This document shows, in pieces, positions 21,021 through 50,053 of a DNA stretch of 64,000 nt (its first letter is position 1; every line of letters begins with the position of its first letter). The position numbers and the translations under genes are program-made. The notes under the pieces were generated by a model. That model was not told where the DNA came from, searched no databases, and worked only from the letters and a program-made list of their open reading frames with translations. Origin of the DNA: Actinophytocola sp. (GTDB taxonomy: Bacteria > Actinomycetota > Actinomycetes > Mycobacteriales > Pseudonocardiaceae); the NCBI GenBank assembly GCA_009379975.1, contig WHSS01000004.1:1-64000 (forward strand), given 5' to 3'.

Positions 21021-21076
21021 TCGGTGTGCCGCGTGCCGGGTGCCGCTCTGTCGGGGGAACGTGATTGCATCCCGGT

Positions 21077-24000
21077 ATGACTCGGACAGCCCAGCGTGCG
21101 CCGCGGCCCGGCGGGCCGGAGCTGATCCGGCGTCGGCTGGGCGAGGCCGGTGCCCGGGAGTGGGATGCCCGCGCCAGGGAGGTGCTCGACGGCAAGGGCT
21201 TCCAGCGAGTGCTCGGCGGGCCTGGCACCGGGAAGACCACCCTGCTCGCCGAGACGGCGGCCGTGCGCATCCTCGACGGTGCGGACCCGGATCAGGTGCT
21301 GGTGCTGAGCGCGTCGCGCCGTGCGGCCGACGGGCTGCGCACCGAGATCGCGCGGCTGCTGACCGGCGGGCCGGACACCGATGCGCCGCGGACGGTCCGG
21401 GAGCCGCTGGTGCGCACGGTGCACTCCTACGCGTTCGGCGTGCTGCGGGCGCAGGCGACGAGCAACGGCGCCCCGCCGCCCCGGTTGTTGTCCGGGCCGG
21501 AGCAGGACGCCGTGGTACGGGATCTGCTCGCGGGCGACATGGAGGCAGGCGCGGCGTACTGGCCTGACGCGCTGCGTCCCGCCTTGGTCGTGCCCGGCTT
21601 CGGGGAAGAGCTCCGGGATCTGGTGCTGCGTGCCGCCGAGCGGGGTCTCGGTCCGGAGGATCTGGTCCGGCTCGGTAAGCGCAAGCACCGCGAGGAATGG
21701 GTGGCGGCTGGCACGTTCTGGAAACAGTACGAGCAGGTCACGTTGCTGCAAGGGGCTGGCGGCAGCGCGCTGGCGGCGCCGAGCGCCGAAGCGTTGGACG
21801 CCGCCGAGCTGGTCTCGTCGGCGCTGCTTTCGCTGATCGGCGACGGTGACCTGCTCGACCGGGAGCGGCGCCGCATCCGGCATCTGCTGGTCGACGACGC
21901 CCAGCACCTCGACCCGCTGCAGTGGCGGCTACTCCGGTTGATCGGCCAAGGGGCGGAGCAGTTCGTCATCGCGGGCGACGGCGACCAGGCGGTGTTCTCG
22001 TTCCGGGGCGCCGACCCGCGAATATTGGCCCATGCCGACGAGTCCGGTGATGCCACCGTGGTGCTCGAGACGGGCCACCGGATGACCTCGGTTGTTGCCG
22101 AGTCGGCCGGGCGGATCGCGGCGGCGATGCCGCGGTCACGCAAGCCACCTATCGCGGCGCCGGACGTGACGGAGTCGGCGGTGTCGGTGCGGCGCTTCCC
22201 CAACTCGTCGTTCGAGGCGAGCTGGGTCGCCGACCAGCTGCGCCGGGCACACCTCATCGACGGCATCGCGTGGTCGGAGATGGCGATCGTGGTCCGTTCG
22301 GCCGCGCGGACTTTTCCGGTACTGCAGCGGGCGTTGCGGGCAGCGGGGGTGCCGATCTCGGCGGCGGCCGATGAGCTGCCGCTGGCGCGCAACCCCGCCG
22401 TCCGCCCGCTGCTGACCGCGCTGCGGGTGGCCTCGAATCCGGACACCCTCGACGGGGAGGTCGCCGAGCAGTTGCTGTCCTCGTCGCTCGGTGGCGCCGA
22501 TCCGCTCGCGCTGCGCAGGCTCCGGCGGGGATTGCGGAGGCTCGAACTCGCCGGTGGCGGCCTCCGCCCGAGCGATGACCTGCTGGTGGAGGCGCTGCGC
22601 ACCGGCGACCCGCTCATCGGGCTCGCCGACTCGGAGTCCGCGCCGATGCGCCGGGTAGGCGACGTTCTCGCCGCGGGCAAGCAGGCGATCTCCCGTTCGG
22701 CGGGCGTCGAGCAGGTGCTGTGGGAAATGTGGCGGGCGAGTGGCCTGCAGCGGCGGTGGCAGCGATTGTCCGAGCGCGGCGGATCCCTCGGCAGGCAAGC
22801 CGATACCGATCTGGACGCCGTCGTCGCGCTGTTCCACGCCGCCGGGTCCTATGTGGACAGATTGCCGCACGCGGGGGTGGCAGGCTTCGCCGATTACCTG
22901 CTCTCGCAGCGGATCGCGGGGGACAGCCTGGCGCCGTCCGCCGCGAAGACCGAGGGCGTCGAACTTCTCACCGCGCACGGCGCCGTTGGCCGCGAGTGGG
23001 CCCTCGTCGCGGTCCCGAGCGTGCAGGAGGGCAGCTGGCCCGACCTACGCCCGCGTGGCTCGCTGCTCGGCGTCGAGCGGCTGGTCGACCTGATGGCGGG
23101 TATCGACGCCCAGGTCTCCGCGATCGCCCCGCTGCTCGCCGAAGAGCGAAGGCTGTTCTACGTGGCGGCGAGCAGGGCGCGCGTGCGGTTGCTGGTCAGC
23201 GCGACCGAGGGCGAGGACGAGCAGCCTTCCCGGTTCCTCGACGATATCGAGGTCCTCGACGCGGGCAGCGACGCCCGGCCCATCGTTCGGGCGGCAGGCG
23301 CCGAGCGGCCGCTCGTGCTGTCCCGGCTGGTCGGTGACCTGCGTTCGGCGGTGTGCGATCCCGGCAGCGACGACGACCGGCGCGGGCGTGCCGCCCGGCA
23401 GCTGGCGCGGCTGGCCCAAGCCGGTGTGCCGGGGGCGCATCCGGACTCGTGGTACGGGCTCGGCGCGGTATCGACCGAGGAACCACTGAAACGGCAGGAC
23501 GAATTGATCAGCGTGTCGCCGTCGACGGTGGACATGCTCGGCCGCTGCCCGTTGCGCTGGCTCGTCGAGCGCAACGGCGGGACCGAGCCGCCTCCGCTGG
23601 CCGCCGTCACCGGCACCGTGATCCACGCCCTGGCGCAGGCGGCGGCCGACGGCGCGACCGACGAGCAGCTACGCGCGACGCTCGACGCCGCATGGTCGCA
23701 GGTCAACGCGGGCGCACCCTGGTTCTCGCGGCGCGAGCGGCAGCGGTTGGAGAGCATGGTTACGGCCTTCCTGACCTGGCTGCGGGGTAGCAGGCACGAA
23801 TTGACCGAGGCGGGCGTGGAGCGTGACATCGAGGTCGAGCTGCCGGTCGCCGACGGCGAGCCGCGGATCAGGCTGCGCGGCCGGATCGACCGCCTGGAAC
23901 GCGACTCCCAGGGGCGCCTGGTGGTCGTCGACCTCAAGACCAGCAAGTCCGCGGTCAGCAAGGCCGATGCCCAGCAGCATCCGCAGCTTGCCACGTACCA

Positions 24001-24280
24001 GCTCGCCATCACGCTCGGGGCCGCCGGAGATGGCGGCGAGCCGGGTGGCGGGCGCTTGATCTACGTGGCCGATGTGCGCAAGCAGACCGGCGCGGCGAAG
24101 GAACTGCCGCAGGACCCGCTGGATGAACCGGCGCGGGTGCAGTGGCTGGGTACCGTCCGGCGTGCGGCCGTCGCGAGCGTCGGGCCCGAGTACGTCGCGC
24201 AGGAAGGCCCCGACTGCGGGCGCTGCCCTTCGCGTGGCTGCTGCCCGCTGCAGCCGGAAGGCAGGCAGGTGACCTCGTGA
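21077..24280 (+). CDS. adnA: ATP-dependent helicase-nuclease subunit AdnA
   Basis: A 1067-residue UvrD/RecB-like protein. Walker A is at about residues 47-54 (Gly-Gly-Pro-Gly-Thr-Gly-Lys-Thr); superfamily 1 motifs follow. The C-terminal third is a RecB-type nuclease with 'GRIDRL' and the catalytic Asp952-Leu-Lys954. Cys824 with Cys1047, Cys1050 and Cys1055/1056 form the pattern of an iron-sulfur 'staple' as in AddB. With AdnB it resects double-strand breaks in actinobacteria. ATG 21077 is used; an upstream TTG is possible. The stop overlaps adnB by 4 bp. Confidence 0.93.
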   Translation: MTRTAQRAPRPGGPELIRRRLGEAGAREWDARAREVLDGKGFQRVLGGPGTGKTTLLAETAAVRILDGADPDQVLVLSASRRAADGLRTEIARLLTGGPDTDAPRTVREPLVRTVHSYAFGVLRAQATSNGAPPPRLLSGPEQDAVVRDLLAGDMEAGAAYWPDALRPALVVPGFGEELRDLVLRAAERGLGPEDLVRLGKRKHREEWVAAGTFWKQYEQVTLLQGAGGSALAAPSAEALDAAELVSSALLSLIGDGDLLDRERRRIRHLLVDDAQHLDPLQWRLLRLIGQGAEQFVIAGDGDQAVFSFRGADPRILAHADESGDATVVLETGHRMTSVVAESAGRIAAAMPRSRKPPIAAPDVTESAVSVRRFPNSSFEASWVADQLRRAHLIDGIAWSEMAIVVRSAARTFPVLQRALRAAGVPISAAADELPLARNPAVRPLLTALRVASNPDTLDGEVAEQLLSSSLGGADPLALRRLRRGLRRLELAGGGLRPSDDLLVEALRTGDPLIGLADSESAPMRRVGDVLAAGKQAISRSAGVEQVLWEMWRASGLQRRWQRLSERGGSLGRQADTDLDAVVALFHAAGSYVDRLPHAGVAGFADYLLSQRIAGDSLAPSAAKTEGVELLTAHGAVGREWALVAVPSVQEGSWPDLRPRGSLLGVERLVDLMAGIDAQVSAIAPLLAEERRLFYVAASRARVRLLVSATEGEDEQPSRFLDDIEVLDAGSDARPIVRAAGAERPLVLSRLVGDLRSAVCDPGSDDDRRGRAARQLARLAQAGVPGAHPDSWYGLGAVSTEEPLKRQDELISVSPSTVDMLGRCPLRWLVERNGGTEPPPLAAVTGTVIHALAQAAADGATDEQLRATLDAAWSQVNAGAPWFSRRERQRLESMVTAFLTWLRGSRHELTEAGVERDIEVELPVADGEPRIRLRGRIDRLERDSQGRLVVVDLKTSKSAVSKADAQQHPQLATYQLAITLGAAGDGGEPGGGRLIYVADVRKQTGAAKELPQDPLDEPARVQWLGTVRRAAVASVGPEYVAQEGPDCGRCPSRGCCPLQPEGRQVTS

Positions 24281-27200
24281 GCGAAGCACCACGGGCGGAT
24301 CCCGCGCGGGTGGCCGCCGCGCTCGGGTTACCGCCGCCGACACCGGAGCAGGCCGCGGTCATCGCCGCACCCATCGAACCGGCGCTGGTCGTCGCCGGTG
24401 CCGGTGCCGGCAAGACCGAGACCATGGCCGCCCGCGTGGTGTGGCTGGTCGCCAACGGGCTCGTGTCGCCGGAACGGGTGCTCGGCCTGACCTTCACCCG
24501 CAAGGCCGCGCGCCAGCTCGCCGAGCGGGTCAGGACACGGCTGCGGGTGCTGGCGGGTTCCGGGTTGCTCGAACAGCTGGACCCGACCGGTCAGCGCCGG
24601 GCACAGCTGGTCGCGAGCGAGCCGACGGTGCTCACCTATCACGCCTACGCCGGGCGCCTGCTCGCCGAGCACGGCCTGCGGCTGCCGGTGCAGCCCGGTT
24701 CACGGTTGCTGTCCGAGACCGCGTCCTGGCAGCTCGCACATCGGGTGGTGGCCACCTGGGACGGCGACCTGGCCACATCACTGGTGCCCGCCACGATCAC
24801 CGAGCGGTTGCTGCGGCTGGCGGGCGAGCTCGGCGAACACCTGGTGGATCCCGAGCGCATCACGGGATACAGCGAGTGGCTCGTCACGCTCATCGAGCAC
24901 GCACCGCGGGCGAAAGGCGGCCGCGCCGCGCTGCAGCAGGACCTGGTCGACATCGTCGAGGCGCAGCGTTTCCGGCTGCAGCTGTTGCCGCTTGTCGCCG
25001 AGTATCTGCGGCGCAAACGCGCGGAAGGCGCGCTGGACTTCGCCGATCAGATGGCGCTCGCGGCCCGGTTGGCCACCGAGCATCCCGAGGTCGTCGACAT
25101 CGAGCGGGAGCGTTATGTCGCCGTGCTGCTCGACGAGTACCAGGACACCGGGCACGCGCAGCGCGTGCTGTTGCGGGGACTGTTCGGCACCGGTGAACGC
25201 AAGCCGCTGCCGGTGACCTCGGTCGGTGATCCGGTGCAGGCGATCTACGGCTGGCGCGGCGCGAGCGCGGCGAACCTGCCCAGATTCACCACCGACTTCC
25301 CCCGTGCGGTCCGCGGGACGGACAAAGGTCTCGCGCCTGCCAAGGAGTACGGGCTGCTGACCAGTTTCCGTAACCCGCCCGAGGTGCTCACCCTGGCCAA
25401 TGCCATCTCGGCGCCGTTGCGCAATGACATCGACGAGCTCAGGCCGCGAGATGGGGCGCCGCCCGCGGACGTCCGGTGTGCGCTGCTGCCCGATGTCGCC
25501 GCGGAGCGGGAGTGGCTCGCCGACGAGATCGCCGAGCGCTGGTTCGCGCCTCGCGAGCCGGGATCCGCTGACGAGGCCGAGCCACCGACGGCCGCGGTGC
25601 TGGTGCGGCGCCGGGCCGATATGGCGCCGATCGCGAGCGCCCTGCGGGAACGCGGTGTGCCGGTCGAGGTCGTCGGCCTCGGTGGGCTGCTGGCCGAGCC
25701 GGAGGTCGCCGACCTGGTCGCGACGCTGCGGGTGCTCGCCGATCCGATGTCCGGCTCGGCCGCCGCCCGATTGCTGACCGGGGCGCGGTGGCGGCTCGGC
25801 GCCGCCGATCTCGCCGCGCTGTGGCGCCGGGCGGTCGAGCTGTCGGCGGGCCAGCAAGCGGTCGAGATCGCCGCCCCATCGGCCGAGTCGCCCGGGCAGT
25901 CTGGTCACGCCGCCCCTGCCGGGAACACCCTCATCGCCGAGCGGGCCGAGCTCACCGGGCTGGTCGACGCCATCGACGATCCGGGGGAGAGGGCCCGCTA
26001 CTCCGACGTGGGCTACCGGCGGATCCGGGCGCTCGGCAGCGAGTTGAACGCATTGCGCCGGCGGCTCGATCAGTCGCTGCCGGAGCTGATAGCCGACGTG
26101 GAGCGCACCATGCTGCTCGACGTCGAGGCGACGGCGCGCCAGGGCCCGACCGGGCGGGTGCAGCTCGACGCCTTCGCCGACGTGGTCACCGAGTTCGCCG
26201 AAAGCTCCGCGAGGCCGACGCTGCTGGCGTTCGTGGACTACCTGGCGACCGCGGAGCAGGCGGAGGACGGGCTCACGCCGGGCGAAGTCGTGGTAGCCGC
26301 CGACCGGGTGCAGGTGCTGACAGCGCATGCCGCGAAGGGGCTGGAGTGGCAGATAGTGGCGGTGCCCCACCTGGTCAAGGATGTCTTTCCCAACCGGCGA
26401 CGGGGCGGCACCTGGCTCACCTCGGTCACCGAACTCCCCGCCGAGCTGCGCGGGGACGCGCGGGACCTGCCGCGGCTGCGTCTTTCGGGCGGCGAGGACC
26501 GCAAGGAGATCCTCGACGCCGTCGCCCGGCACAAAGAGGAGTTCGCCCAGCGGCAGGCCGACGAGGAACGCAGGCTCTGCTACGTCGCGCTGACGCGTTC
26601 CGAGCACTGCCTGCTGGTATCGGGGCATTGGTGGAGTGAGACCGGGCCATCGGCGCGTGGCCCTTCGGAGTTCCTGACCGAGCTCGCCGAGCTGATCTCC
26701 TCCGACGAGCGGCTGGGCACCATCGCCTGCTGGACGGACGAACCGGAGGGCGAGAACCCGAACCTCGCCGAGGCCCGCACGGCGCAGTGGCCTGCCGACC
26801 CGCTCGGCGGGCGTCGGGCGGCGGTCGCCAACGGTGCCGAGCTGGTCTTCGAGGAGCTCGCCGGGCTGCCCACGGAACCCGATCCCGATCACGAGGACGA
26901 CCTCGAGGAAGACGACCCTGAGGGATGGCAAGCCGACACCGACGTGTTACTGGCCGAGCGCGCGCGGGGCGGCGGGAGCACCGAGCGGATCGCCCTGCCG
27001 GAGCAGCTCTCGGTCAGCCAACTCGTCGAACTCGCCACCGACCCCGCTTCGCTGGCGCGCAGACTGCGGCGGCCGCTGCCCATGCCGCCGAACGCCGTCG
27101 CCCGGCGGGGAACCGCCTTTCACGCCTGGCTGGAACGGCGTTTCGGCAGCGCCCGCCTGCTCGAGTTCGACGACCTGCCCGGCGCGGCCGACACCGACGC

Positions 27201-27594
27201 GGGCAGCGACGCGGAGTTCGAGGAGCTACGCAGGGCCTTCGAGGCGAGCGAGTGGGCGGAGCGCACGCCGCACGACGTGGAAGTGCCGTTCGTGTGCGAG
27301 TTCGACGGGATGGCGCTGCGCGGCAGGATGGACGCGGTGTTCGCCGATCCCGACGGCGGCTGGACCGTGGTGGACTGGAAGACCGGCGCGGTGCCGTCGG
27401 CCGAGGCGATGCCCGTGTTGTCGGTGCAGCTCGCCGCTTACCGGGTGGCATGGGCGGCGCTGGCGGGGGTGCCGCTGGCACAGGTGCGCGCGGCATTTCA
27501 CTATGTGCGCGCATCTCACACCGCCCGCCCTGCCGACCTGCTGGACGCCGACGGCCTTCGTGACCTGCTGCGATCCGTTCCGTCGGGTGAATAA
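24277..27594 (+). CDS. adnB: ATP-dependent helicase-nuclease subunit AdnB
   Basis: A 1105-residue protein with an N-terminal UvrD-like motor (Walker A Gly41-Ala-Gly-Ala-Gly-Lys46-Thr47; Walker B 'DEYQDT' at 286-291) and a C-terminal RecB-like nuclease with 'GRMDAV' and Asp1033-Trp-Lys1035. In mycobacteria AdnB is the main translocating motor of the AdnAB heterodimer, which unwinds and degrades DNA ends. The GTG start overlaps the adnA stop by 4 bp. A Glu/Asp-rich insertion at about 870-895 ('DPDHEDDLEEDDPEG') separates motor and nuclease. Confidence 0.95.
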   Translation: MSEAPRADPARVAAALGLPPPTPEQAAVIAAPIEPALVVAGAGAGKTETMAARVVWLVANGLVSPERVLGLTFTRKAARQLAERVRTRLRVLAGSGLLEQLDPTGQRRAQLVASEPTVLTYHAYAGRLLAEHGLRLPVQPGSRLLSETASWQLAHRVVATWDGDLATSLVPATITERLLRLAGELGEHLVDPERITGYSEWLVTLIEHAPRAKGGRAALQQDLVDIVEAQRFRLQLLPLVAEYLRRKRAEGALDFADQMALAARLATEHPEVVDIERERYVAVLLDEYQDTGHAQRVLLRGLFGTGERKPLPVTSVGDPVQAIYGWRGASAANLPRFTTDFPRAVRGTDKGLAPAKEYGLLTSFRNPPEVLTLANAISAPLRNDIDELRPRDGAPPADVRCALLPDVAAEREWLADEIAERWFAPREPGSADEAEPPTAAVLVRRRADMAPIASALRERGVPVEVVGLGGLLAEPEVADLVATLRVLADPMSGSAAARLLTGARWRLGAADLAALWRRAVELSAGQQAVEIAAPSAESPGQSGHAAPAGNTLIAERAELTGLVDAIDDPGERARYSDVGYRRIRALGSELNALRRRLDQSLPELIADVERTMLLDVEATARQGPTGRVQLDAFADVVTEFAESSARPTLLAFVDYLATAEQAEDGLTPGEVVVAADRVQVLTAHAAKGLEWQIVAVPHLVKDVFPNRRRGGTWLTSVTELPAELRGDARDLPRLRLSGGEDRKEILDAVARHKEEFAQRQADEERRLCYVALTRSEHCLLVSGHWWSETGPSARGPSEFLTELAELISSDERLGTIACWTDEPEGENPNLAEARTAQWPADPLGGRRAAVANGAELVFEELAGLPTEPDPDHEDDLEEDDPEGWQADTDVLLAERARGGGSTERIALPEQLSVSQLVELATDPASLARRLRRPLPMPPNAVARRGTAFHAWLERRFGSARLLEFDDLPGAADTDAGSDAEFEELRRAFEASEWAERTPHDVEVPFVCEFDGMALRGRMDAVFADPDGGWTVVDWKTGAVPSAEAMPVLSVQLAAYRVAWAALAGVPLAQVRAAFHYVRASHTARPADLLDADGLRDLLRSVPSGE

Positions 27595-40568: not shown

Positions 40569-40997
40569 AGGACGAGTTGGCAGGGCGGCCGCGGGCGGTA
40601 CTCGTCAGAGCACCGTCCGAGGAAAGTCCGGACTCCACAGGGCAGGGTGGTTGCTAACGGCAACCCGGGGTGACCCGCGGGAAAGTGCCACAGAAAACAG
40701 ACCGCCGCCGTGGCGGAGCAGGTGCCTCTGGCGCAGGGGACGCAACGGCGGTAAGGGTGAAACGGCGGTGTAAGAGACCACCAGCACCCCGGGTGACCGG
40801 GGTGGCTCGGCAAACCCCACCCGGAGCAAGGCCAAGAGGGCACCTCGGTGCCTGCGCGAGCAACAGGGCGGCCCGTCCTCGCTCGCGGGTAGGCCGCTGG
40901 AGCCCGCCGGCGACGACGGGCCAAGATGGATGGTCGCCACCTGCGGCGCCGCGAGGTGTCGCAGGGACAGGATCCGGCTTACATGCCAACTCGTCCC
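40569..40997 (+). ncRNA. rnpB: RNase P RNA (M1 RNA, type A)
   Basis: About 429 nt. The 5' GACGAGTTGG (40571-40580) pairs perfectly with CCAACTCGTC (40986-40995), closing helix P1. Universal core sequences are present in order: GAGGAAAGTCCGGACTCC near 40619, the GGGTGAAACGGCGGTGTAAG region near 40755 with ACCACCAGC after it, and GGACAGGATCCGGCTTAC near 40963, which pairs back with the first core to form P4. It is the catalytic subunit that matures tRNA 5' ends. Ends are given to within a few bases. Confidence 0.95.
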
Positions 40998-41656: not shown

Positions 41657-42091
41657 TTGCGCATCCGCACCGATGACGAGGTGTACCGCGTCGACGCAGT
41701 CTGGCTCGGTCCGCCGAAAGCGACGTTTCCCTGGCGCGCCCGTTACGTGGCGTGGGGCGTCGGTTTCGTCCTGTTCCTGCTCATACTCACCGTCGAGCGG
41801 CAGCTCGGCATCACCTTCGGTTTCTTCAGCACGGCGTGGGCCTTCGTCATCACCATCGCACTCACCAAACTCATCACCTCGCGCATCAGCCACGAGCGGC
41901 CGCTCGGCGCCGTGCTCGCGATGTGGTTTCGCGAGCTCACCACGCCACGGGAGAAGACAACCGGAGAGGGTGGCGCCGTGAGCGCGAGCAAGGTGCGGAT
42001 CCACACCCAGCGCCCGAGACCGCAGCGAGCACGTCACGGGACGCCCGTCACAGCAGACACACGCCAGCGCGTCATGCAGGCCAGGAGGTAG
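41657..42091 (+). CDS. PrgI/VirB3-like inner membrane protein
   Basis: A 144-residue protein with two adjacent membrane helices in the first half ('YVAWGVGFVLFLLILTVE' and 'FFSTAWAFVITIALTKLI') and a basic, cytoplasmic C-terminal half ending 'RVMQARR'. Two-helix proteins encoded directly before VirB4 in type IV secretion loci belong to the VirB3/PrgI group, and this one fits by size, topology and place. The start is TTG. It stops 3 bp before the ATPase gene, so the two are translationally coupled and likely interact. Confidence 0.65.
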   Translation: MRIRTDDEVYRVDAVWLGPPKATFPWRARYVAWGVGFVLFLLILTVERQLGITFGFFSTAWAFVITIALTKLITSRISHERPLGAVLAMWFRELTTPREKTTGEGGAVSASKVRIHTQRPRPQRARHGTPVTADTRQRVMQARR

Positions 42092-42094
42092 TCG

Positions 42095-45000
42095 TTGTTC
42101 GGTCGCGGCGCAAGCCAGAGCCAGCCGGAGCGGGCCAACCCGGACTCCGGGCCGAACGGCGCGCGCAAGCCTCGCAAGGGGCGCAGACTGCCCGGCGAGC
42201 AGTCGGTGCCCTCCTACACGCCGTCGATCGCCGCCCGCAGCATCGACGGGCATCTGCTCCGCACCAGCCAGGAGATCTACGCCTGGTACCGCCTCTCACC
42301 GCAGCGCTGGTCGTTCCGTTCCGACTCGCAGCGCCGCGACCTGATCGCCGCGATCGCCGGGCAGTACGCCGAGCTGCAAGGCCGGTGGCTGCACCTGCGG
42401 GTCACCACCCGGCCGTATCCGATCCGGATGTGGGCGGAAGCGCACGTCCATAACGCCGCCAACCGGCTGCAGGACACGCCGGGCGCGCAGTCGTTCGACG
42501 ACTACCTGATCGGCGAGCAGCAGCAGCTGATGGGCCGTTCCATGGCGGAGAAAGAGGTGTACCTCGGCGTGCAGGTGCAGACCCGCAACGCGGTGGACCG
42601 GGCCGTCGAGCGCGTCGCCCCGCTGCTGCGCAAGGTGCTGCCCGAGGCCGTCGACGCCGAACTGATCGCGCTCGACTCCGAAGTGGAGCACCTCGATCAG
42701 GTGCTCAGTGCCGCCGGCCTGGAAGGGCGGCCCGCCGAAGCGGGCGAGATGTCCTGGCTGATGCACCGTTCCTGCGCGCTCGGCCTGCCCGCGCCGCGCA
42801 GCATGCCCGCCGTGCCCGGCGCGGCTTGGGAGCCGGAAGACCTCGCCAGCTTCACCGACGCCGCCGACTTCCACGCCGACCCGTACGCGCCGACCGTCAC
42901 CGTGCGCGGGCGCACCGGCTCCAACGCGGGCGTCACCAGTCACCTCACCGTGCTGACCATCGGCCAGATGCACGGCCTGCAGATCCCCGAGGTCGACGAC
43001 CCGTGGATGCAGCACGCCGATCGGCTGCCCTCCGCCGTCGAGTGGTCGGCCCGCATCTATGTGCGGCGGCCCGAGGAGGTCGCCGGCGAGCTCGCCAGGC
43101 AGATGAACAAGGTCCGCTCGCAGGTCAAGCATTACACCGATGAGCACGAGCTGGAGCCACCGCAGTCGCTGTCCCGGCAGGCGGCGCGCGTACTCGAGAT
43201 CGACGACGAGATGACATCGGGCTTCACCGCGCTCGCCACGCGCGTGCATTCCTGGTGGCGGATGGCGGTCTCGGGCCCGACCGAGCGCGACACGCTCCGG
43301 CATGCCCAGCAGCTGCTCGAGCTCTACAAGCCGAAGATCGCCGTCGAGCATCCGGAGGCGCAGTACGCGCTGGCGCGCGAGTTCATCCCCGGTGAGCCGC
43401 TCGCGTCGGCCGCGTACAAGCGGCGCGGCTCGGTGGTGTGGGCGGCGTCCTCGGTGCCGACGGCGACAGCGGACGTCGGCGACCGGCGAGGCATCCTGCT
43501 CGGCGAGACCTGCACCGCGACCCGCAGGCCGGTCGCGTGGGACCCGTGGATGGCGCAGGAGATCAGGGACGGCTCCGGCCTGACGGCAATCGTGGCCGGT
43601 TTAGGCGGGGGCAAGGCGCTGGCACTGGACACCCCGTTGCCCACGCCGACCGGCTGGACCACGATGGGCGAGGTCCAGGTGGGCGATCAGCTGCTGGGAA
43701 TGGATGGCAAGCCTACCGGCGTGATCGCGGCGACGGACGTGATGATCGACCGGCCCTGTTTCGACGTGGTGTTCTCGGACGGATCGGTGATACGCGCGGA
43801 CGCGCAGCATCAGTGGCTGACCCGGACGAGGAAGGACTGGAAGGCGCAGGACCGGCTCAACGAACGAATGCAGCGCGCATCCGCCGCGGTCCCTGCCGCT
43901 GAGGCGCCTCCTGGTATATGTGCTTGCGGTTGCGGTCAGCCGACGCGAAGGTGGACGTATCGGAGAACGCCCATGGCGCGCAGCGACGGCACGTACTACT
44001 ACTCGCGCTTCGCTCATGGCCACCAGCGGCGAGGTGAGATTTCGCTGGTCGCCAATCAGCTGCCCACAGTTCATACGACCGCGGAGATCGCTCAGACGCT
44101 GCGGTCCGGTCAGCAGAACAATCACTCGGTTCCGGTGGCCCGGGCGTTCGACCTGCCCGCAGCCGAGCTGCCGGTCGATCCCTATCTCCTCGGAGCCTGG
44201 CTGGGCGACGGGACCTCCATTCGAGCGGAGATCACGGTCTTCGACCGCGAGATCGTCGACCACATCGAGGCATCCGGCCAAGAGTGCCGACCTCGGCGGG
44301 CCGAAGGACACTACGGCTTGCCGGGCACGTTGCAGAAGCGTTTGCGAGAGCTGGGCGTCCTCGGCGACAAGCACATCCCGGCGGGCTATCTTCGCGCAGC
44401 CGAGCCGCAACGACGTGCCTTGCTCGCCGGTCTGCTGGACACCGACGGCTACTGCAAACCGACCGGCGGCATCCAGTTCTCGGTGACGAACGAGCGGTTG
44501 GCTCGCGGCTTCCATGAACTCGCGCTCAGTCTCGGATACCAGCCCCGGATGAGCACGAAGCGGGTGAAGGGGCGCCACCCGCACACATCGACCGTGTACA
44601 CGATCTCCTTCACGACCGCTGACAAGGTCTTCCGGGTCACTCGGAAGTTGGCGCGTCTCAACCCCAGCATCCGAGACACGAACCACCGTCGGTACATCAC
44701 CGACGTAATCCCGGTCGAATCTGTGGCGGTGCGTTGCGTCCAGGTAGACAACGCCGACCACACGTATCTCGCCGGGAATACATGCATCCCTACGCACAAC
44801 TCTTTTCTTGGCGGCGGCACGGTGTACAAGACGCTGCGGGCGGGCGCGCATTGGACGATCCTCGACCCCTCCGGCCCGCTCTCCAGGCTGTGTGACCTGC
44901 CCGAACTGCGGCCGTACGCGCGTCCGATCAACCTCCTCAACGCGCAGCCCGGCATCCTCAACCCCTACCGGGTCGTCGCGGAGCCGCTGCTCGAGCACTT

Positions 45001-46252
45001 CATGGACGAGGACGATCCGGAGCGGGCCTGGCGCCGGGAGTCGGCGCTGGCGGGCGCGACCCGGCGCAGGCTGGTGCTCGACGTGCTTTCCGGCATCCTG
45101 CCCTACGAGGTCGCCCGGCTGCCGCAGACCAGGATCGTGCTGCTGCGTGCGGTCAGGGCGGTCGGCGGCCGGTTCGACGCCGACCCTGGGCAGGTCATCG
45201 ACGCGCTGCGACGCGACGCGAGCGAGCACCACGAGCATGCCGTCGTCGTCGCCGACTTCCTCGACGAGATGCGTGAGCGCATGTCGCTGCTCATCCCCGA
45301 GGCCGATGCCGACCCGTACCGCGATCACCGCGACGACCGGCTCACCGTGCTGACCATGGCAGGCCTGACGCTGCCCAAGGACGGTGTCGGCCGCGAGCAC
45401 TGGACCGACGCCGAAGCGCTGGGCGTCGAAATGCTCAACCTCGCCGCGTGGCTGACCCAGCGTTCGGTCTATGAGCGGCCGAAGGAGGAGCGCAAGGGTG
45501 TCTGGATCGATGAGGCGTTCTTCCTCTCCGAAGTGCCGACCGGCCGGGTGCTGATGAACCGGTTCGCGCGTGACTCGCGTAAATGGAACGTGCGGGTGCT
45601 GCTGTCGTCGCAGATCCCCGCGGACTTCCTGCGCATCCAAGGGTTCGTCTCGCTGCTCGACTCGGTGTTCGTCGGCAGGCTGGATGACGACGACGTCCAG
45701 TCCGATGCCCTGCGCCTGCTCAAGGTGCCGGTCGGCGTCGGCTACGAACAGGTCGTCTCGGCGCTCGGCAGGCGCCCCGGTATCGCCAGGGGGGAGACCG
45801 AGCGGGACCGCGACCCGCGGCAGTTCATCTTCGCCGATGGCGCTGGCGGCGTGGAGCGCATCAGGGTGGACTTCTCCGGTGCCCACCTCGCGCATCTGCG
45901 CGACGCGCTGGACACCACACCGGGCGCCAAGGAGCCGTCCGGCAGGCAGGAAGCCGCGCCGGCGGTGCAGGGCGGCGGGCGGGGCGAGCAGGCCGCGCAG
46001 CGGCAGGAGCAGGAGCAGGCCCGGCAGGGCGGTATGCCCTTCGACGACGCCGACTTCCAACTGGCCGCCGAGCAGGAGCTCGGCATCGCCGAGGACGACC
46101 TGGGCAAAAACGACGCCAGAGATCCCAGTCACGCCAGAGATGCCAGAGCACCAGAGGAGACAGGAGCCGCAGGAGGAGCCGAAGCCACTCGCGAGGAAGG
46201 AACTCACGCCAGGGCTGGGCGCAAGCGCGGAACCGGCAGGGACGCGGCATGA
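42095..46252 (+). CDS. VirB4-like type IV secretion ATPase interrupted by an intein
   Basis: A 1385-codon gene; after removal of the 395-residue intein (codons 508-902) the ATPase has 990 residues. The N-terminal about 480 residues are a CagE/TrbE/VirB-like domain. The Walker A motif Ala-Gly-Leu-Gly-Gly-Gly-Lys507 | Ser903 is split by the intein between Lys and Ser, so the ATPase is inactive until splicing. Walker B is 'GVWIDEAFF' at about 1135-1143, followed by 'VLLSSQIPADFLRIQGF'. A Gln/Glu-rich low-complexity tail of about 90 residues ends the protein. VirB4 proteins power assembly and substrate transfer in type IV secretion. The start is TTG at 42095, 3 bp after the VirB3-like gene. Confidence 0.85.
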   Translation: MFGRGASQSQPERANPDSGPNGARKPRKGRRLPGEQSVPSYTPSIAARSIDGHLLRTSQEIYAWYRLSPQRWSFRSDSQRRDLIAAIAGQYAELQGRWLHLRVTTRPYPIRMWAEAHVHNAANRLQDTPGAQSFDDYLIGEQQQLMGRSMAEKEVYLGVQVQTRNAVDRAVERVAPLLRKVLPEAVDAELIALDSEVEHLDQVLSAAGLEGRPAEAGEMSWLMHRSCALGLPAPRSMPAVPGAAWEPEDLASFTDAADFHADPYAPTVTVRGRTGSNAGVTSHLTVLTIGQMHGLQIPEVDDPWMQHADRLPSAVEWSARIYVRRPEEVAGELARQMNKVRSQVKHYTDEHELEPPQSLSRQAARVLEIDDEMTSGFTALATRVHSWWRMAVSGPTERDTLRHAQQLLELYKPKIAVEHPEAQYALAREFIPGEPLASAAYKRRGSVVWAASSVPTATADVGDRRGILLGETCTATRRPVAWDPWMAQEIRDGSGLTAIVAGLGGGKALALDTPLPTPTGWTTMGEVQVGDQLLGMDGKPTGVIAATDVMIDRPCFDVVFSDGSVIRADAQHQWLTRTRKDWKAQDRLNERMQRASAAVPAAEAPPGICACGCGQPTRRWTYRRTPMARSDGTYYYSRFAHGHQRRGEISLVANQLPTVHTTAEIAQTLRSGQQNNHSVPVARAFDLPAAELPVDPYLLGAWLGDGTSIRAEITVFDREIVDHIEASGQECRPRRAEGHYGLPGTLQKRLRELGVLGDKHIPAGYLRAAEPQRRALLAGLLDTDGYCKPTGGIQFSVTNERLARGFHELALSLGYQPRMSTKRVKGRHPHTSTVYTISFTTADKVFRVTRKLARLNPSIRDTNHRRYITDVIPVESVAVRCVQVDNADHTYLAGNTCIPTHNSFLGGGTVYKTLRAGAHWTILDPSGPLSRLCDLPELRPYARPINLLNAQPGILNPYRVVAEPLLEHFMDEDDPERAWRRESALAGATRRRLVLDVLSGILPYEVARLPQTRIVLLRAVRAVGGRFDADPGQVIDALRRDASEHHEHAVVVADFLDEMRERMSLLIPEADADPYRDHRDDRLTVLTMAGLTLPKDGVGREHWTDAEALGVEMLNLAAWLTQRSVYERPKEERKGVWIDEAFFLSEVPTGRVLMNRFARDSRKWNVRVLLSSQIPADFLRIQGFVSLLDSVFVGRLDDDDVQSDALRLLKVPVGVGYEQVVSALGRRPGIARGETERDRDPRQFIFADGAGGVERIRVDFSGAHLAHLRDALDTTPGAKEPSGRQEAAPAVQGGGRGEQAAQRQEQEQARQGGMPFDDADFQLAAEQELGIAEDDLGKNDARDPSHARDARAPEETGAAGGAEATREEGTHARAGRKRGTGRDAA
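43616..44800 (+). mobile_element. Class 3-type intein with LAGLIDADG homing endonuclease in VirB4 Walker A
   Basis: 395 codons inserted in frame between Lys507 and Ser903 of the VirB4-like ATPase. It begins Ala-Leu-Ala-Leu-Asp-Thr-Pro (no Cys or Ser at position 1) and ends Pro-Thr-His-Asn before Ser+1. The three class 3 residues are present: Trp574 in block B ('DAQHQWLT'), Cys881 in block F ('VRCVQVD') and Thr900 in block G. Endonuclease motifs are 'LLGAWLGDG' (698-706) and 'LLAGLLDTDG' (776-785), both with their Asp. A cysteine cluster (Cys609, 611, 613) lies between block B and the endonuclease. GC content and codon use are slightly less extreme than in the extein. Confidence 0.92.
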
Positions 46253-46343
46253 GGACTGCTTGCAGGTCCGAATCATCGGGCACCATGCCTCTGCCTGCCA
46301 ATGATCTGGCGCGGCTTGCCGCTTTCCGTTGGGAGCCGCGGGC

Positions 46344-48422
46344 ATGAGCGGGTGGACCGTGCTGGTGGTGATCATCGCTGCCGTTGCCGTGGCGCGAGCG
46401 GCTCGGCGGCGTCTCAAACGTCCCGGCGGTCATCGTGGCCGGATCATGCTCATCGTCACCGCGCTCGTCGGGTTCCAGCTGCTCATCGGCGCGCCGATGG
46501 CCGCGGCGAGCAAATGCGGTGAGGCGCCGAACCCCGAGCGGCCGGGCACCGGGATGGTAGGTGCGCTCGATCCCGCGGAAGACCGTGGCGAGCCCGGCAG
46601 CCCCTACAGCGACTACAGCTACGCGGGCATGGTCTGGCACACCTTCGAAACCGAATGCGATGCGCTCTCCGGGGTCACCGACGCGAACACCACGCTCGAT
46701 ACCTGGGCGGGAAACCAGCTGTTCAACATCGGCAAGAACATCGCGGGCGCCACCAACGCGCTGCACTACACCGTGATGGAAGGCGGGCTGTTCACCCCGC
46801 TGCACAACGCCATCAAAACCGGCACCGAGAAGGTCTACAACAACATCTACGCGCAGCTGTTCGGCCTGGTCGCGCTGTTGCTGGCGATCCTGATGTTCCG
46901 CCACATCTGGCGCGGTGACCTGCCCTCGGTGAGCAAGCGCGCGCTCTTCGCCCTCGGTGCGGTATGGCTGGCGGCGTCGTCGCTGGCCTTGCTGCGGTAC
47001 TTCGACAGCATCGACAACGCGATCGTGAACACCACGACCAAGATCCAAGCGGGCTTTGTCGACCATTCCGAGAACCGCAACGTCGAGGACGTCCTGCCGA
47101 CGAACCTGCACAACGAGATCGTCTACAAGAACTGGCTGCGCGGCGAGTTCGGCTCGCCGGATGCCGCCGAGGCCGAAGAACACGGCATGCCGCTGCTCGA
47201 CGCGCAGGCGTTCACCTGGGAACAGATGGCCAACGGCGATGACGGCGACGAGAGGGTCATCGACGAGAAGAACCGGGAATACGAGCGCATCGCGGAGGAG
47301 CTCGGGCCGTCACAGGGCTACTTCACCGGAGAGGACGGCAGCCGCACCGGCGCCGGCTTCATCGCGCTCCTGCAAAGCCTGGTGTATTCGCTGTTCCAGC
47401 TCCTCGCCAAGGCCGCCGTGCTGCTGGCGCAAGTGCTGGTCAGACTGCTCACCTTGACGGCGCCCCTGCTGGGCCTGGTCGCACTGCTGCATCACGACAT
47501 CCTGCGTCGCGTCGCGAAGGTCGCGGGCACCGTCGGGTTCAACCTGATCGTGCTCTCGGTATTGGCGGGCGTGCACGCGCTGCTGTTGAACGCGATCTTC
47601 GCCGCGGCGGGCCCGCTGTCCATGCTGACGCAGATGGCGATGGCAGGCCTGGTGACGATCTTGCTCTTCGTCGTCGGCAGGCCGGTACGCAGGCTGTGGC
47701 AGATGGTGGACGTGACGACCAGGACGGTCGGCGCCGCGCTGCCCACCGCGCCGAGCTTGTTCTCCCGATTCCGGCGCAAGCAGGAGGGCCGGACGCCGCA
47801 GGACGAGTTCTGGCAGAACGTCAAGGACACCGATACCGACGCGATCGAGCACGCGCCGGGGCCGATGGGCAGCTCCACCATGGCGAACCGGCGGGTGCGG
47901 CCCGAGGCGAGGACCCCGGTCGCCGCCTCCGCCCAGCGGCTCGACCGGCGCGGCGAGGCCGGGCAGGCGGCGTTGGGTACCACGGCGGGCAGGCCCGCGC
48001 TGCCGCCCGGCGGTATGCCACAGCCCGCCGCACTCGGTTTCACACCGGGAGGCGTGCGCGGCGACGGCATGGCTCCCGGCAGGCCGCAGTACCAAACGGC
48101 CGTGCGCGCGGACGGCGGTCCCGCTCAGCCGAGGCGCCGCTTCGACGCACCGGTCCGCGGCCAAGCTCCCGCTCTCGACTACGGCGATCCGCTCGTCATA
48201 CCGTCCCGGATGCCCGGCACGCAGCCCGAGACAGGCGGTGCGCCCGATACACCCGTTGACATGCCCGGCGAGCGGCAGTCGCGCACCGGCGGGCCGCAGC
48301 CGCGCCGGGCGGACACCGAAGTGATCAACGGCAAACCGGTATTCGTGCTGTATCGGCCGTCACGCGGCCTCGAAGTACGGCCGGACAACGCTGTCCGCGA
48401 CACCGATTCCGTGGTGAGGTGA
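46344..48422 (+). CDS. VirB6/TrbL-like polytopic membrane protein
   Basis: A 692-residue protein. A membrane helix at about 3-18, a second signal-like hydrophobic segment ending 'GAPMAAAS', an extracytoplasmic region, then several helices: 'LFGLVALLLAILMFRHIW', 'ALGAVWLAASSLALLRYF', and a cluster between about 340 and 460. The last 200 residues are a proline/arginine-rich cytoplasmic tail. The layout resembles VirB6/TrbL proteins, the membrane channel of type IV secretion systems. ATG 46344 with GGGAG is preferred to TTG 46329. It lies 91 bp after the ATPase gene. Confidence 0.7.
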   Translation: MSGWTVLVVIIAAVAVARAARRRLKRPGGHRGRIMLIVTALVGFQLLIGAPMAAASKCGEAPNPERPGTGMVGALDPAEDRGEPGSPYSDYSYAGMVWHTFETECDALSGVTDANTTLDTWAGNQLFNIGKNIAGATNALHYTVMEGGLFTPLHNAIKTGTEKVYNNIYAQLFGLVALLLAILMFRHIWRGDLPSVSKRALFALGAVWLAASSLALLRYFDSIDNAIVNTTTKIQAGFVDHSENRNVEDVLPTNLHNEIVYKNWLRGEFGSPDAAEAEEHGMPLLDAQAFTWEQMANGDDGDERVIDEKNREYERIAEELGPSQGYFTGEDGSRTGAGFIALLQSLVYSLFQLLAKAAVLLAQVLVRLLTLTAPLLGLVALLHHDILRRVAKVAGTVGFNLIVLSVLAGVHALLLNAIFAAAGPLSMLTQMAMAGLVTILLFVVGRPVRRLWQMVDVTTRTVGAALPTAPSLFSRFRRKQEGRTPQDEFWQNVKDTDTDAIEHAPGPMGSSTMANRRVRPEARTPVAASAQRLDRRGEAGQAALGTTAGRPALPPGGMPQPAALGFTPGGVRGDGMAPGRPQYQTAVRADGGPAQPRRRFDAPVRGQAPALDYGDPLVIPSRMPGTQPETGGAPDTPVDMPGERQSRTGGPQPRRADTEVINGKPVFVLYRPSRGLEVRPDNAVRDTDSVVR

Positions 48423-48429
48423 TCGCGGC

Positions 48430-49047
48430 ATGCCGATTCGGACCCATCGCGGCCGGGCCGCGGTCTACCGGCGGATCTGGGGCGCGCCGTTGCGCTCGCC
48501 GAAGCACCTCATCGTCACCGTGGTGATCATGGTCGCGCTGGTCACGACCGTCGGCTTCGTGGTGCCGAAGCTGATCCCCGGCGGGGACACGCCGTCACCC
48601 GCGGCGAGCGAAAGCGAGAACCGGTGGACGCACGAGGACAGCGAGGAGTCCTCCGCCGCATCGCCGGGGAAAGCCATACCGGCTGAGCCGTCCGAGACCC
48701 GATTGACCGAGTCACCGCTCTCACCCACTTCGGCGCCTGCCGCCCCCGAGGCGGTCGCCGCGGCGACGAAGTGGGCGCGGGCATGGGTCGACCATCCGGA
48801 GGGCACCACCAGCGAGAAGTGGCTCGCCGGCCTCGCTCCTTACACGACCGACGAATACCTGCCCGTGATGGAATCCGTCGAGCCGCCGAACATTCCCGCG
48901 TCGAAGGTCATCGGCAAGGCGAAGGTCACCCATTCGACTTCGAGTTCGGTCGAAGCTGAGGTGCCTACGGACGGCCCGACGCTGCTGATCACGGTGGTCA
49001 AGACCCATGACGGGTGGCTTGTCGCCGCCTACGACCAAGGGTCCTGA
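48430..49047 (+). CDS. Bitopic membrane protein, VirB8-like
   Basis: A 205-residue protein: a basic cytoplasmic N-terminus, one membrane helix ('LIVTVVIMVALVTTVGFVVP'), a Ser/Glu/Pro-rich linker and a C-terminal domain of about 100 residues ('VAAATKWARAWVDH', 'ASKVIGKAKVTH', 'GWLVAAYDQGS') with the alpha+beta pattern of NTF2-like VirB8/TraM domains. Such proteins stabilise the translocation channel in Gram-positive type IV secretion. Assignment is by topology and position rather than direct similarity. It starts 7 bp after the VirB6-like gene. Confidence 0.6.
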   Translation: MPIRTHRGRAAVYRRIWGAPLRSPKHLIVTVVIMVALVTTVGFVVPKLIPGGDTPSPAASESENRWTHEDSEESSAASPGKAIPAEPSETRLTESPLSPTSAPAAPEAVAAATKWARAWVDHPEGTTSEKWLAGLAPYTTDEYLPVMESVEPPNIPASKVIGKAKVTHSTSSSVEAEVPTDGPTLLITVVKTHDGWLVAAYDQGS

Positions 49048-49051
49048 TCCG

Positions 49052-50053
49052 ATGCGCCTCGGTGTGGTGGTGGCCTGCCTCGTTGCCGCGACGGCGTTCG
49101 CCGTGGTCGTCGCGACGACCACGGTGGTCAGCGTCATCGAAGCCGACGAGCGGGCGCAGGCCGGCGGGATCAGCACCGTCAGCTGCGAGGCGTCGATCGG
49201 GCCGACCGGGCAGGGTGATCGGCGCCGGGCCGAGGTCCAGGTGGGCAACCTCGACGAAGAGCAGCGGGGCATCGTCGCGCTCATCGTTTCGATCGGGAAA
49301 CAGCGCGAGTTGTCGCCCCGCGCGTGGCAGATCGCGATCCAGGCGGGCATGACCGAGTCCGGGCTGCGTAACCTCCGGCACGGCGACCGTGACTCGCTCG
49401 GGATCTTCCAGATGCGGCCGTCGATGGGATGGGGAACGATCGCTCAGGTGACCCATCCGACCTATCAGGTCAACAAGTTCTACGACGTGCTCGAATCGCT
49501 GCCGGACTGGCAGAGCCGCAGGCCGGGCGACGCCGCCCAGGCGGTCGAGCGTTCCGCGTTTCCCGATCGCTATCATCAGTGGGAGTCGATGGCGGTTCAT
49601 CTGGTCGAGAACGTCGGCAAGGTCGGCGACGCCGCCGGGTGCGGTGAGAGTGCCGGCTCCGCGCTGCCCCCGAGCGAGGCCGCGGCGCAGGCGATCAAGT
49701 TCGCGATGAAGGAGCGGGGCAAGCCCTATGTGTGGGGTGCGACCGGGCCCGATTCCTACGACTGCTCGGGGCTGTTGCTGCGGGCGTTCGAGTCCGCCGG
49801 CATAACGCTGCCGCGGGTGTCGCGTGATCAGTACCGGGCGGGTGCGATGCTCCCGGTCGAGAAGGCGAAGCCGGGTGACCTGTTGTTCTGGGCCTATGAC
49901 CGGTCCAACCCGGCCACCATCCACCACGTCGCGATGTACATCGGCGACGGCCAGATCGTCGAAGCTCAGCAGTCCGGCGTGCCGGTGCACACCCGGTCGG
50001 TGGTATTTGACGAGGCGGAACTGCTGCCGGTCGCGGTCCGTCCGGGAGTCTGA
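49052..50053 (+). CDS. Cell-wall hydrolase: lysozyme-like domain plus NlpC/P60 endopeptidase
   Basis: A 333-residue protein: an N-terminal membrane anchor ('LGVVVACLVAATAFAVVVA'), a transglycosylase-like region ('TESGLRNLRHGDRDSLGIFQ' with its Glu) and a C-terminal NlpC/P60 domain ('YDCSGLLLRAFE' catalytic Cys, 'HHVAMYIGDGQIVEA' catalytic His). This two-enzyme layout is the Gram-positive equivalent of VirB1 (as in Tn916 Orf14/TcpG): it opens peptidoglycan for the secretion apparatus. ATG 49052 follows the preceding stop by 4 bp; the in-frame upstream codon lies inside that gene. Confidence 0.88.
   Translation: MRLGVVVACLVAATAFAVVVATTTVVSVIEADERAQAGGISTVSCEASIGPTGQGDRRRAEVQVGNLDEEQRGIVALIVSIGKQRELSPRAWQIAIQAGMTESGLRNLRHGDRDSLGIFQMRPSMGWGTIAQVTHPTYQVNKFYDVLESLPDWQSRRPGDAAQAVERSAFPDRYHQWESMAVHLVENVGKVGDAAGCGESAGSALPPSEAAAQAIKFAMKERGKPYVWGATGPDSYDCSGLLLRAFESAGITLPRVSRDQYRAGAMLPVEKAKPGDLLFWAYDRSNPATIHHVAMYIGDGQIVEAQQSGVPVHTRSVVFDEAELLPVAVRPGV

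Follow-up and report, generated by a model that had tools for sequence, protein, structure and literature searches.

The ATPase gene and the element within it

The window, i.e., the whole stretch of 64,000 nucleotides analysed here, comes from a draft genome of Actinophytocola sp. (86% complete). It carries an open, stop-free frame of 1385 aa at 42095-46252 (+), and within this frame lies an intein of 395 aa (43616-44800, +). The presence of the intein was confirmed and is far beyond chance. The features of the locus are as follows, with residues numbered within the intein unless stated otherwise.

40573-40997, upstream of the cluster: rnpB, RNase P RNA (class A)
41657..42091, + strand: small gene directly upstream of the ATPase; synteny kept in 9 of 9 loci tested
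42095..43615, + strand: N-extein, 507 aa of the VirB4/TcpF-like ATPase, ending ...VAGLGGGK (Walker A through Lys)
43616..44800, + strand: predicted class 3 intein, 395 aa, from A1 to PTHN
43757..43759, + strand: Cys48, counterpart of MsmDnaBi1 Cys48 (regulatory disulfide)
43808..43816, + strand: block B His65 (B:10), Gln66 and Trp67 (B:12); H and W invariant in the alignment
43913..44038, + strand: Cys/His-rich insert CxCxC...RFxxGHxRRGE, residues 100-141
44186..44212, + strand: LAGLIDADG motif 1, LLGAWLGDG (Asp198); a helix in the AlphaFold model
44423..44449, + strand: LAGLIDADG motif 2, LAGLLDTDG (Asp277)
44735..44737, + strand: block F Cys374 (F:4), precursor Cys881, predicted first nucleophile; invariant, aligns with the catalytic Cys of 6rix
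44792..44800, + strand: block G Thr393-His394-Asn395; invariant in the alignment
44801..46252, + strand: C-extein, 483 aa, starting SFLGGG (Ser+1 of the intein is the Walker A Ser), with AAA_10 domain
46329..48422, + strand: membrane protein downstream of the ATPase; weak match to the CD3337/EF1877 mobilome (VirB6-like) family, E 2.8e-11, below the model cutoff
49007..50053, + strand: NlpC/P60 peptidoglycan hydrolase of the same cluster, E 3.8e-23

The intein comprises precursor residues 508-902, with Lys507/Ala508 and Asn902/Ser903 at its two junctions (slashes mark junctions throughout). The sequence around the boundaries is GLGGGK/ALALDTP...PTHN/SFLGGG, and the precursor reads ...VAGLGGGK / ALALDTPLPTPTGW...ADAQHQW...VRCVQVD...CIPTHN / SFLGGG.... 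Intein-free relatives, with C-exteins 88-95% identical to that of the window and an intact P-loop, read VAGLGGGKSFLGGG without any gap, so both junctions were fixed to the residue, and the element separates exactly the Lys from the Ser of Walker A. These uninterrupted P-loops bear out the preliminary description, in which the intein was placed inside the Walker A motif between Lys507 and Ser903 and a search for empty alleles was suggested. The residue numbers given there (Lys507, Trp574, Cys881, Thr900, Asn902, and Ser903) were all correct. The N-extein was 63-89% identical to the N-terminal part of relatives, both with and without intein.

In the Pfam search the C-extein contained an AAA_10 domain (E 4.5e-14, 52.7 bits against a cutoff of 27.5). 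It also matched the model of the conjugal transfer ATPase TcpF (E 5.6e-9), at 34.4 bits, which is below the curated cutoff of 1100. Judged from these scores, the host ATPase is related to TcpF without being a member of TcpF proper; the AAA_10 domain and the sub-cutoff TcpF match are the basis for calling it VirB4-like, as had been proposed earlier. With a weakly VirB6-like membrane protein and an NlpC/P60 hydrolase alongside these matches, the chromosomal cluster appears similar to the type IV secretion (T4SS) machinery of Gram-positive bacteria, but the window ORFs scanned included neither a relaxase nor a coupling protein. The small gene at 41657..42091 gave zero matches in the family search. 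The chromosomal flanks of the cluster include rnpB, RNase H/acid phosphatase, RNase II, and panB.

The host gene was present in all 150 sampled genomes of the actinobacterial family (46 genera), which is Pseudonocardiaceae judging by named relatives. Carriers in the order sample numbered 39 of 101 genomes, of which 12 belong to this family; in the phylum sample there were 3 of 100, the genome of the window counted. Location of the gene on a mobile element was rejected in view of the chromosomal flanks together with its presence in 150/150 family genomes. Paralogues of the host gene with 34-42% identity occur on actinobacterial plasmids. Elsewhere in the window (21065-27594) there are two adjoining UvrD-helicase plus PD-(D/E)XK nuclease genes, which are AdnA/AdnB-like.

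Class 3 features and proposed splicing route

Position 1 of the intein, as set by the empty alleles, is Ala, and not Cys, Ser, or Thr. The W-C-T triplet is present as Trp67 (B:12, precursor residue 574), Cys374 (F:4, 881), and Thr393 (G:5, 900), along with His65 (B:10), the penultimate His394, the terminal Asn395, and Ser+1. His65, Trp67, Cys374, Thr393, His394, and Asn395 were invariant across 17 aligned relatives, and the signature residues were likewise kept in a wider set of 133 inteins, for which H, W, C, and T had partly served as selection criteria. The profile of the 17 aligned inteins matched MchDnaB1 (6rix) with E 2.9e-56 and MsmDnaBi1 (6bs8) with E 1.9e-53, the former alignment spanning the first to the last residue with Ala1 at position 1. 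The intein C-terminal model TIGR01443 (intein_Cterm) was passed at 17.1 bits against a curated cutoff of 15.6, and in the phylogeny the window intein was nested inside the DnaB P-loop class 3 radiation.

The AlphaFold model of the intein (mean pLDDT 83, pTM 0.78) has a HINT fold with an inserted LAGLIDADG domain. Among PDB entries it was closest to PI-SceI (E 9e-20) and to MsmDnaBi1 and MchDnaB1, both of class 3; 69 model residues fitted these class 3 structures to 0.6-0.7 A and were 77% identical to MchDnaB1. PI-SceI, the yeast VMA intein, was the best match over the whole length, with HINT fold and two LAGLIDADG motifs, but it is a class 1 intein with 17% identity. By its sequence, the window element is a class 3 intein according to the definition in PMC5222942. 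The class 3 signature and the Ala start recognized in the preliminary description were thus upheld by residues, invariance, profile, and fold, and the alignment with known class 3 inteins proposed there gave the end-to-end match to MchDnaB1.

We hold with high confidence that the locus contains a class 3 LAGLIDADG intein in the Walker A motif of a family-core, chromosomal VirB4/TcpF-like ATPase, with the following mechanism and history. By analogy with solved and experimentally tested relatives, the precursor would fold and Cys374 of block F would attack the Lys507-Ala508 bond and take over the N-extein, after which the acyl group would move to Ser903 (+1). Cyclization of Asn902 would free the intein, and an O-N shift would rejoin GLGGGK with Ser and restore the P-loop; ATP binding should be blocked before splicing. 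If the endonuclease is active, it would cut the DNA of empty alleles at the P-loop codons, and repair would copy the intein in. The intein probably stems from the class 3 inteins of DnaB and phage helicases and reached the gene through a single entry, with later patchy spread or loss.

Cysteine 48, possible endonuclease activity, and alternative readings

MsmDnaBi1 is inhibited by H2O2 via a Cys48-Cys118 disulfide (PMC6195587), and the window intein has both matching partners, Cys48 and Cys374. When 133 P-loop class 3 inteins were aligned, 126 had Cys48; the residue had played no part in selecting the set and was absent from the divergent plasmid TraD/VirB4 inteins. Together with a predicted splicing-domain fold nearly identical to MsmDnaBi1 and MchDnaB1, these data would be compatible with a functional class 3 intein doubling as a redox switch, in which oxidation links Cys48 to Cys374 and the ATPase is held as inactive precursor, as proposed for MsmDnaBi1. 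The conserved pair is the one additional point in favour of the post-translational switch raised as a possibility in the preliminary description, and we regard the redox-switch reading as unlikely. Splicing of MsmDnaBi1 was lost with every substitution of Cys48 (PMC6195587); the conservation may therefore stem from catalysis alone and is in itself no proof of regulation. Moreover, 145 of 150 relatives are without the intein, which speaks against a needed switch and makes the intein look more like a parasite that is tolerated than a control that is required. Still less likely is a reading by analogy with MsmDnaBi1 in which the intein of the few carrier lineages would serve the family-wide T4SS-like secretion ATPase as a post-translational valve that responds to redox state through Cys48-Cys374. 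Should splicing be redox-dependent, conditional splicing would be extended from replication to secretion.

Both LAGLIDADG motifs of the window intein, LLGAWLGDG and LAGLLDTDG, keep their catalytic Asp (Asp198 and Asp277), and when the intein was searched alone, the Pfam families LAGLIDADG_3 (E 5.4e-7) and Hom_end exceeded their own cutoffs. Both catalytic Asps were intact in seven of the eight alleles of the VirB4-type gene that carry the intein, the exception being L022 with second motif LLDTAG. In pairwise comparisons (Nei-Gojobori) the splicing domain had a dN/dS of ~0.08, against ~0.15 in the endonuclease domain and 0.15 in the C-extein; these values are approximate because silent sites are near saturation. 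The intein domains are thus close to or below the C-extein, and purifying selection acts on the host gene. Given the two retained Asps and the low dN/dS, the endonuclease looks functional or recently functional, and the intein, with a LAGLIDADG domain that appears intact, is probably still mobile, in line with the earlier suggestion, drawn from the two Asps, that it may be.

It is very unlikely that the intein is degenerate, having lost splicing, or that the host gene is a pseudogene. Decay does occur in the same genome, where the first LAGLIDADG motif of a DnaB intein is broken (LGALLGAG), and L022 is a VirB4 intein relative that lost its second catalytic Asp; however, every splicing residue is invariant, the 1385-aa frame is open and stop-free, and the splicing domain with dN/dS ~0.08 is carried by a host gene under purifying selection.

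The Cys/His-rich insert of the window intein (CACGCGQPT...RFAHGHQRRGE, 43913-44038) sits between block B and the endonuclease. It was found in the VirB4-type intein clade, where it is mostly deleted in L022, and lies in a region of low model confidence. Searched against Pfam, the insert gave zero matches even at E 5. It could be a candidate DNA-recognition element, acquired along with the change of target.

A class 2-like mechanism, with Ser903 attacking the N-junction directly and Cys374 not the first nucleophile, would agree with Ala at position 1, since class 2 inteins likewise have no nucleophile there (PMC5222942), but is extremely improbable in view of the complete W-C-T signature, the profile matches to class 3 structures, and the requirement for CysF:4 demonstrated in the close kin MsmDnaBi1 (PMC5222942).

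Distribution, history, and related inteins

Among the 150 family genomes, the class 3 intein was found inside the host gene in only five, i.e., the genome of the window, G036, G065, G068, and G111. A scan of genome contigs added alleles in Amycolatopsis alkalitolerans and two Pseudonocardia, giving a total of eight, while a long ORF of G134, checked as a possible further allele, had no intein inside. Relatives with up to 95% identity in the C-extein keep the P-loop uninterrupted. The eight VirB4-type inteins formed one clade (support 100/100) within the class 3 DnaB/phage-helicase radiation. The intein-bearing alleles were scattered over the host tree, where at least five gains or losses are needed, and the window allele grouped with eight empty alleles (98% SH-aLRT).

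A single intein clade with carriers scattered on the host tree is consistent with a single entry into the gene and subsequent spread and loss, and the patchy occurrence would fit a homing endonuclease cutting uninterrupted alleles. At the deepest split, inteins and exteins were equally diverged, with about 66% identity each, so vertical inheritance with many losses may also explain the distribution, and either transfer or loss may have prevailed. The locus adds a well-documented insertion site for which one bacterial family offers both natural empty alleles and eight alleles with the intein, and it is a good natural system for studying how a homing endonuclease switches target protein yet keeps the motif.

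The genome of the window has a second class 3 intein of 277 aa in the Walker A motif of DnaB (L003, contig C220, 1020-1850), in which the first LAGLIDADG motif is the one without Asp. In the tree this DnaB intein fell among the other DnaB inteins of the family, while a long branch leads to the VirB4 inteins, which form a clade of their own; a direct derivation of the window intein from this DnaB intein was not supported. In the same genome PhoH is also interrupted by an intein (L004, contig C100, 1171-3282, -; RGR/SQPRF...LLTHN/T), which has W, C, and T at the class 3 positions, yet its first residue is likely Ser. Class 3 PhoH inteins are known from mycobacteria (PMC6195587).

The nearest characterized relatives, MsmDnaBi1 and MchDnaB1 (6bs8, 6rix), have the class signature, the P-loop insertion, and Cys48 in common with the window intein, and the N-terminal part of the latter is 77% identical to MchDnaB1 over 69 residues. 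They differ in being endonuclease-free mini-inteins of a replicative helicase, whereas the window intein has a full LAGLIDADG domain and interrupts a VirB4-like ATPase. TerL1-a and other mycobacteriophage class 3 inteins are likewise inserted between the invariant P-loop Lys and Ser/Thr, a site termed 'classic' (PMC5050341), but their hosts are phage terminases and identity to the window intein is about 35-41%.

Our search of openly accessible literature on inteins with VirB4 or secretion found nothing relevant. IcmO is a coupling-protein homologue, outside the VirB4 family. The IcmO intein of Burkholderia vietnamiensis, in a T4SS-type ATPase, was shown experimentally in 2016 to splice via the class 3 route (PMC5222942). 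Like the window intein, it belongs to class 3 and interrupts a protein whose name refers to type IV secretion, but it is a mini-intein (142 aa) with Cys+1 in a proteobacterial plasmid gene. W-C-T inteins in conjugation-type ATPases are also present in the TraD protein of plasmid pKAZ5 (L233) and in VirB4-like proteins of Bifidobacterium longum (L234) and Curtobacterium (L235) plasmids. The former two share the site GSGK/A...THN/T with the window-type insertion, while the Curtobacterium intein differs with the site DPK/T; all three are separate lineages with 24-40% identity to the window intein. The 'new host context' claimed in the preliminary description was therefore overstated, with the splicing IcmO intein and the TraD and VirB4-like class 3 inteins in public records. 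In the light of the IcmO precedent and the classic Lys-Ser/Thr site, the window site adds to a known pattern. What is new here is the insertion site in a family-wide gene, its history, and the conserved Cys48-Cys(F:4) pair.

Related class 3 inteins at the GK/(S or T) site were found in DnaB, FtsK-like (L042 and L046), terminase-like (L080 and L081), and many viral ATPases, as well as in a ClpB-like AAA ATPase (L236), the plasmid TraD, and the Bifidobacterium VirB4-like protein; the FtsK, terminase, and ClpB host names were taken from flanking sequence or record annotation and not from a family search. The locus adds to the pattern that class 3 inteins move among unrelated P-loop ATPases sharing this motif (DnaB, FtsK-like, terminase, TraD, ClpB-like, and VirB4-like). 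A single origin for all VirB4-type inteins was rejected (p-AU 0.0036), with the caution that the plasmid rows are long branches, and the rejection argues that T4SS-type ATPases were entered several times.

Some details of the plasmid records are worth adding. The pKAZ5 gene (IncC-type plasmid, 2946-5918 of L233; coupling protein with junctions GTTGSGK/A...THN/T) is annotated merely as TraD, and matches with equal scores occur in plasmids of Enterobacteriaceae. In the Curtobacterium plasmid D40 (5001-6197 of L235), the W-C-T intein lies at DPK/TGSDHSG and leaves the Walker A sequence GAGKS whole, which makes it a second insertion site in the VirB4-like family. The ClpB-like AAA ATPase of a Streptomyces plasmid (3818-8113 of L236) has two inteins, apparently one per Walker A motif.
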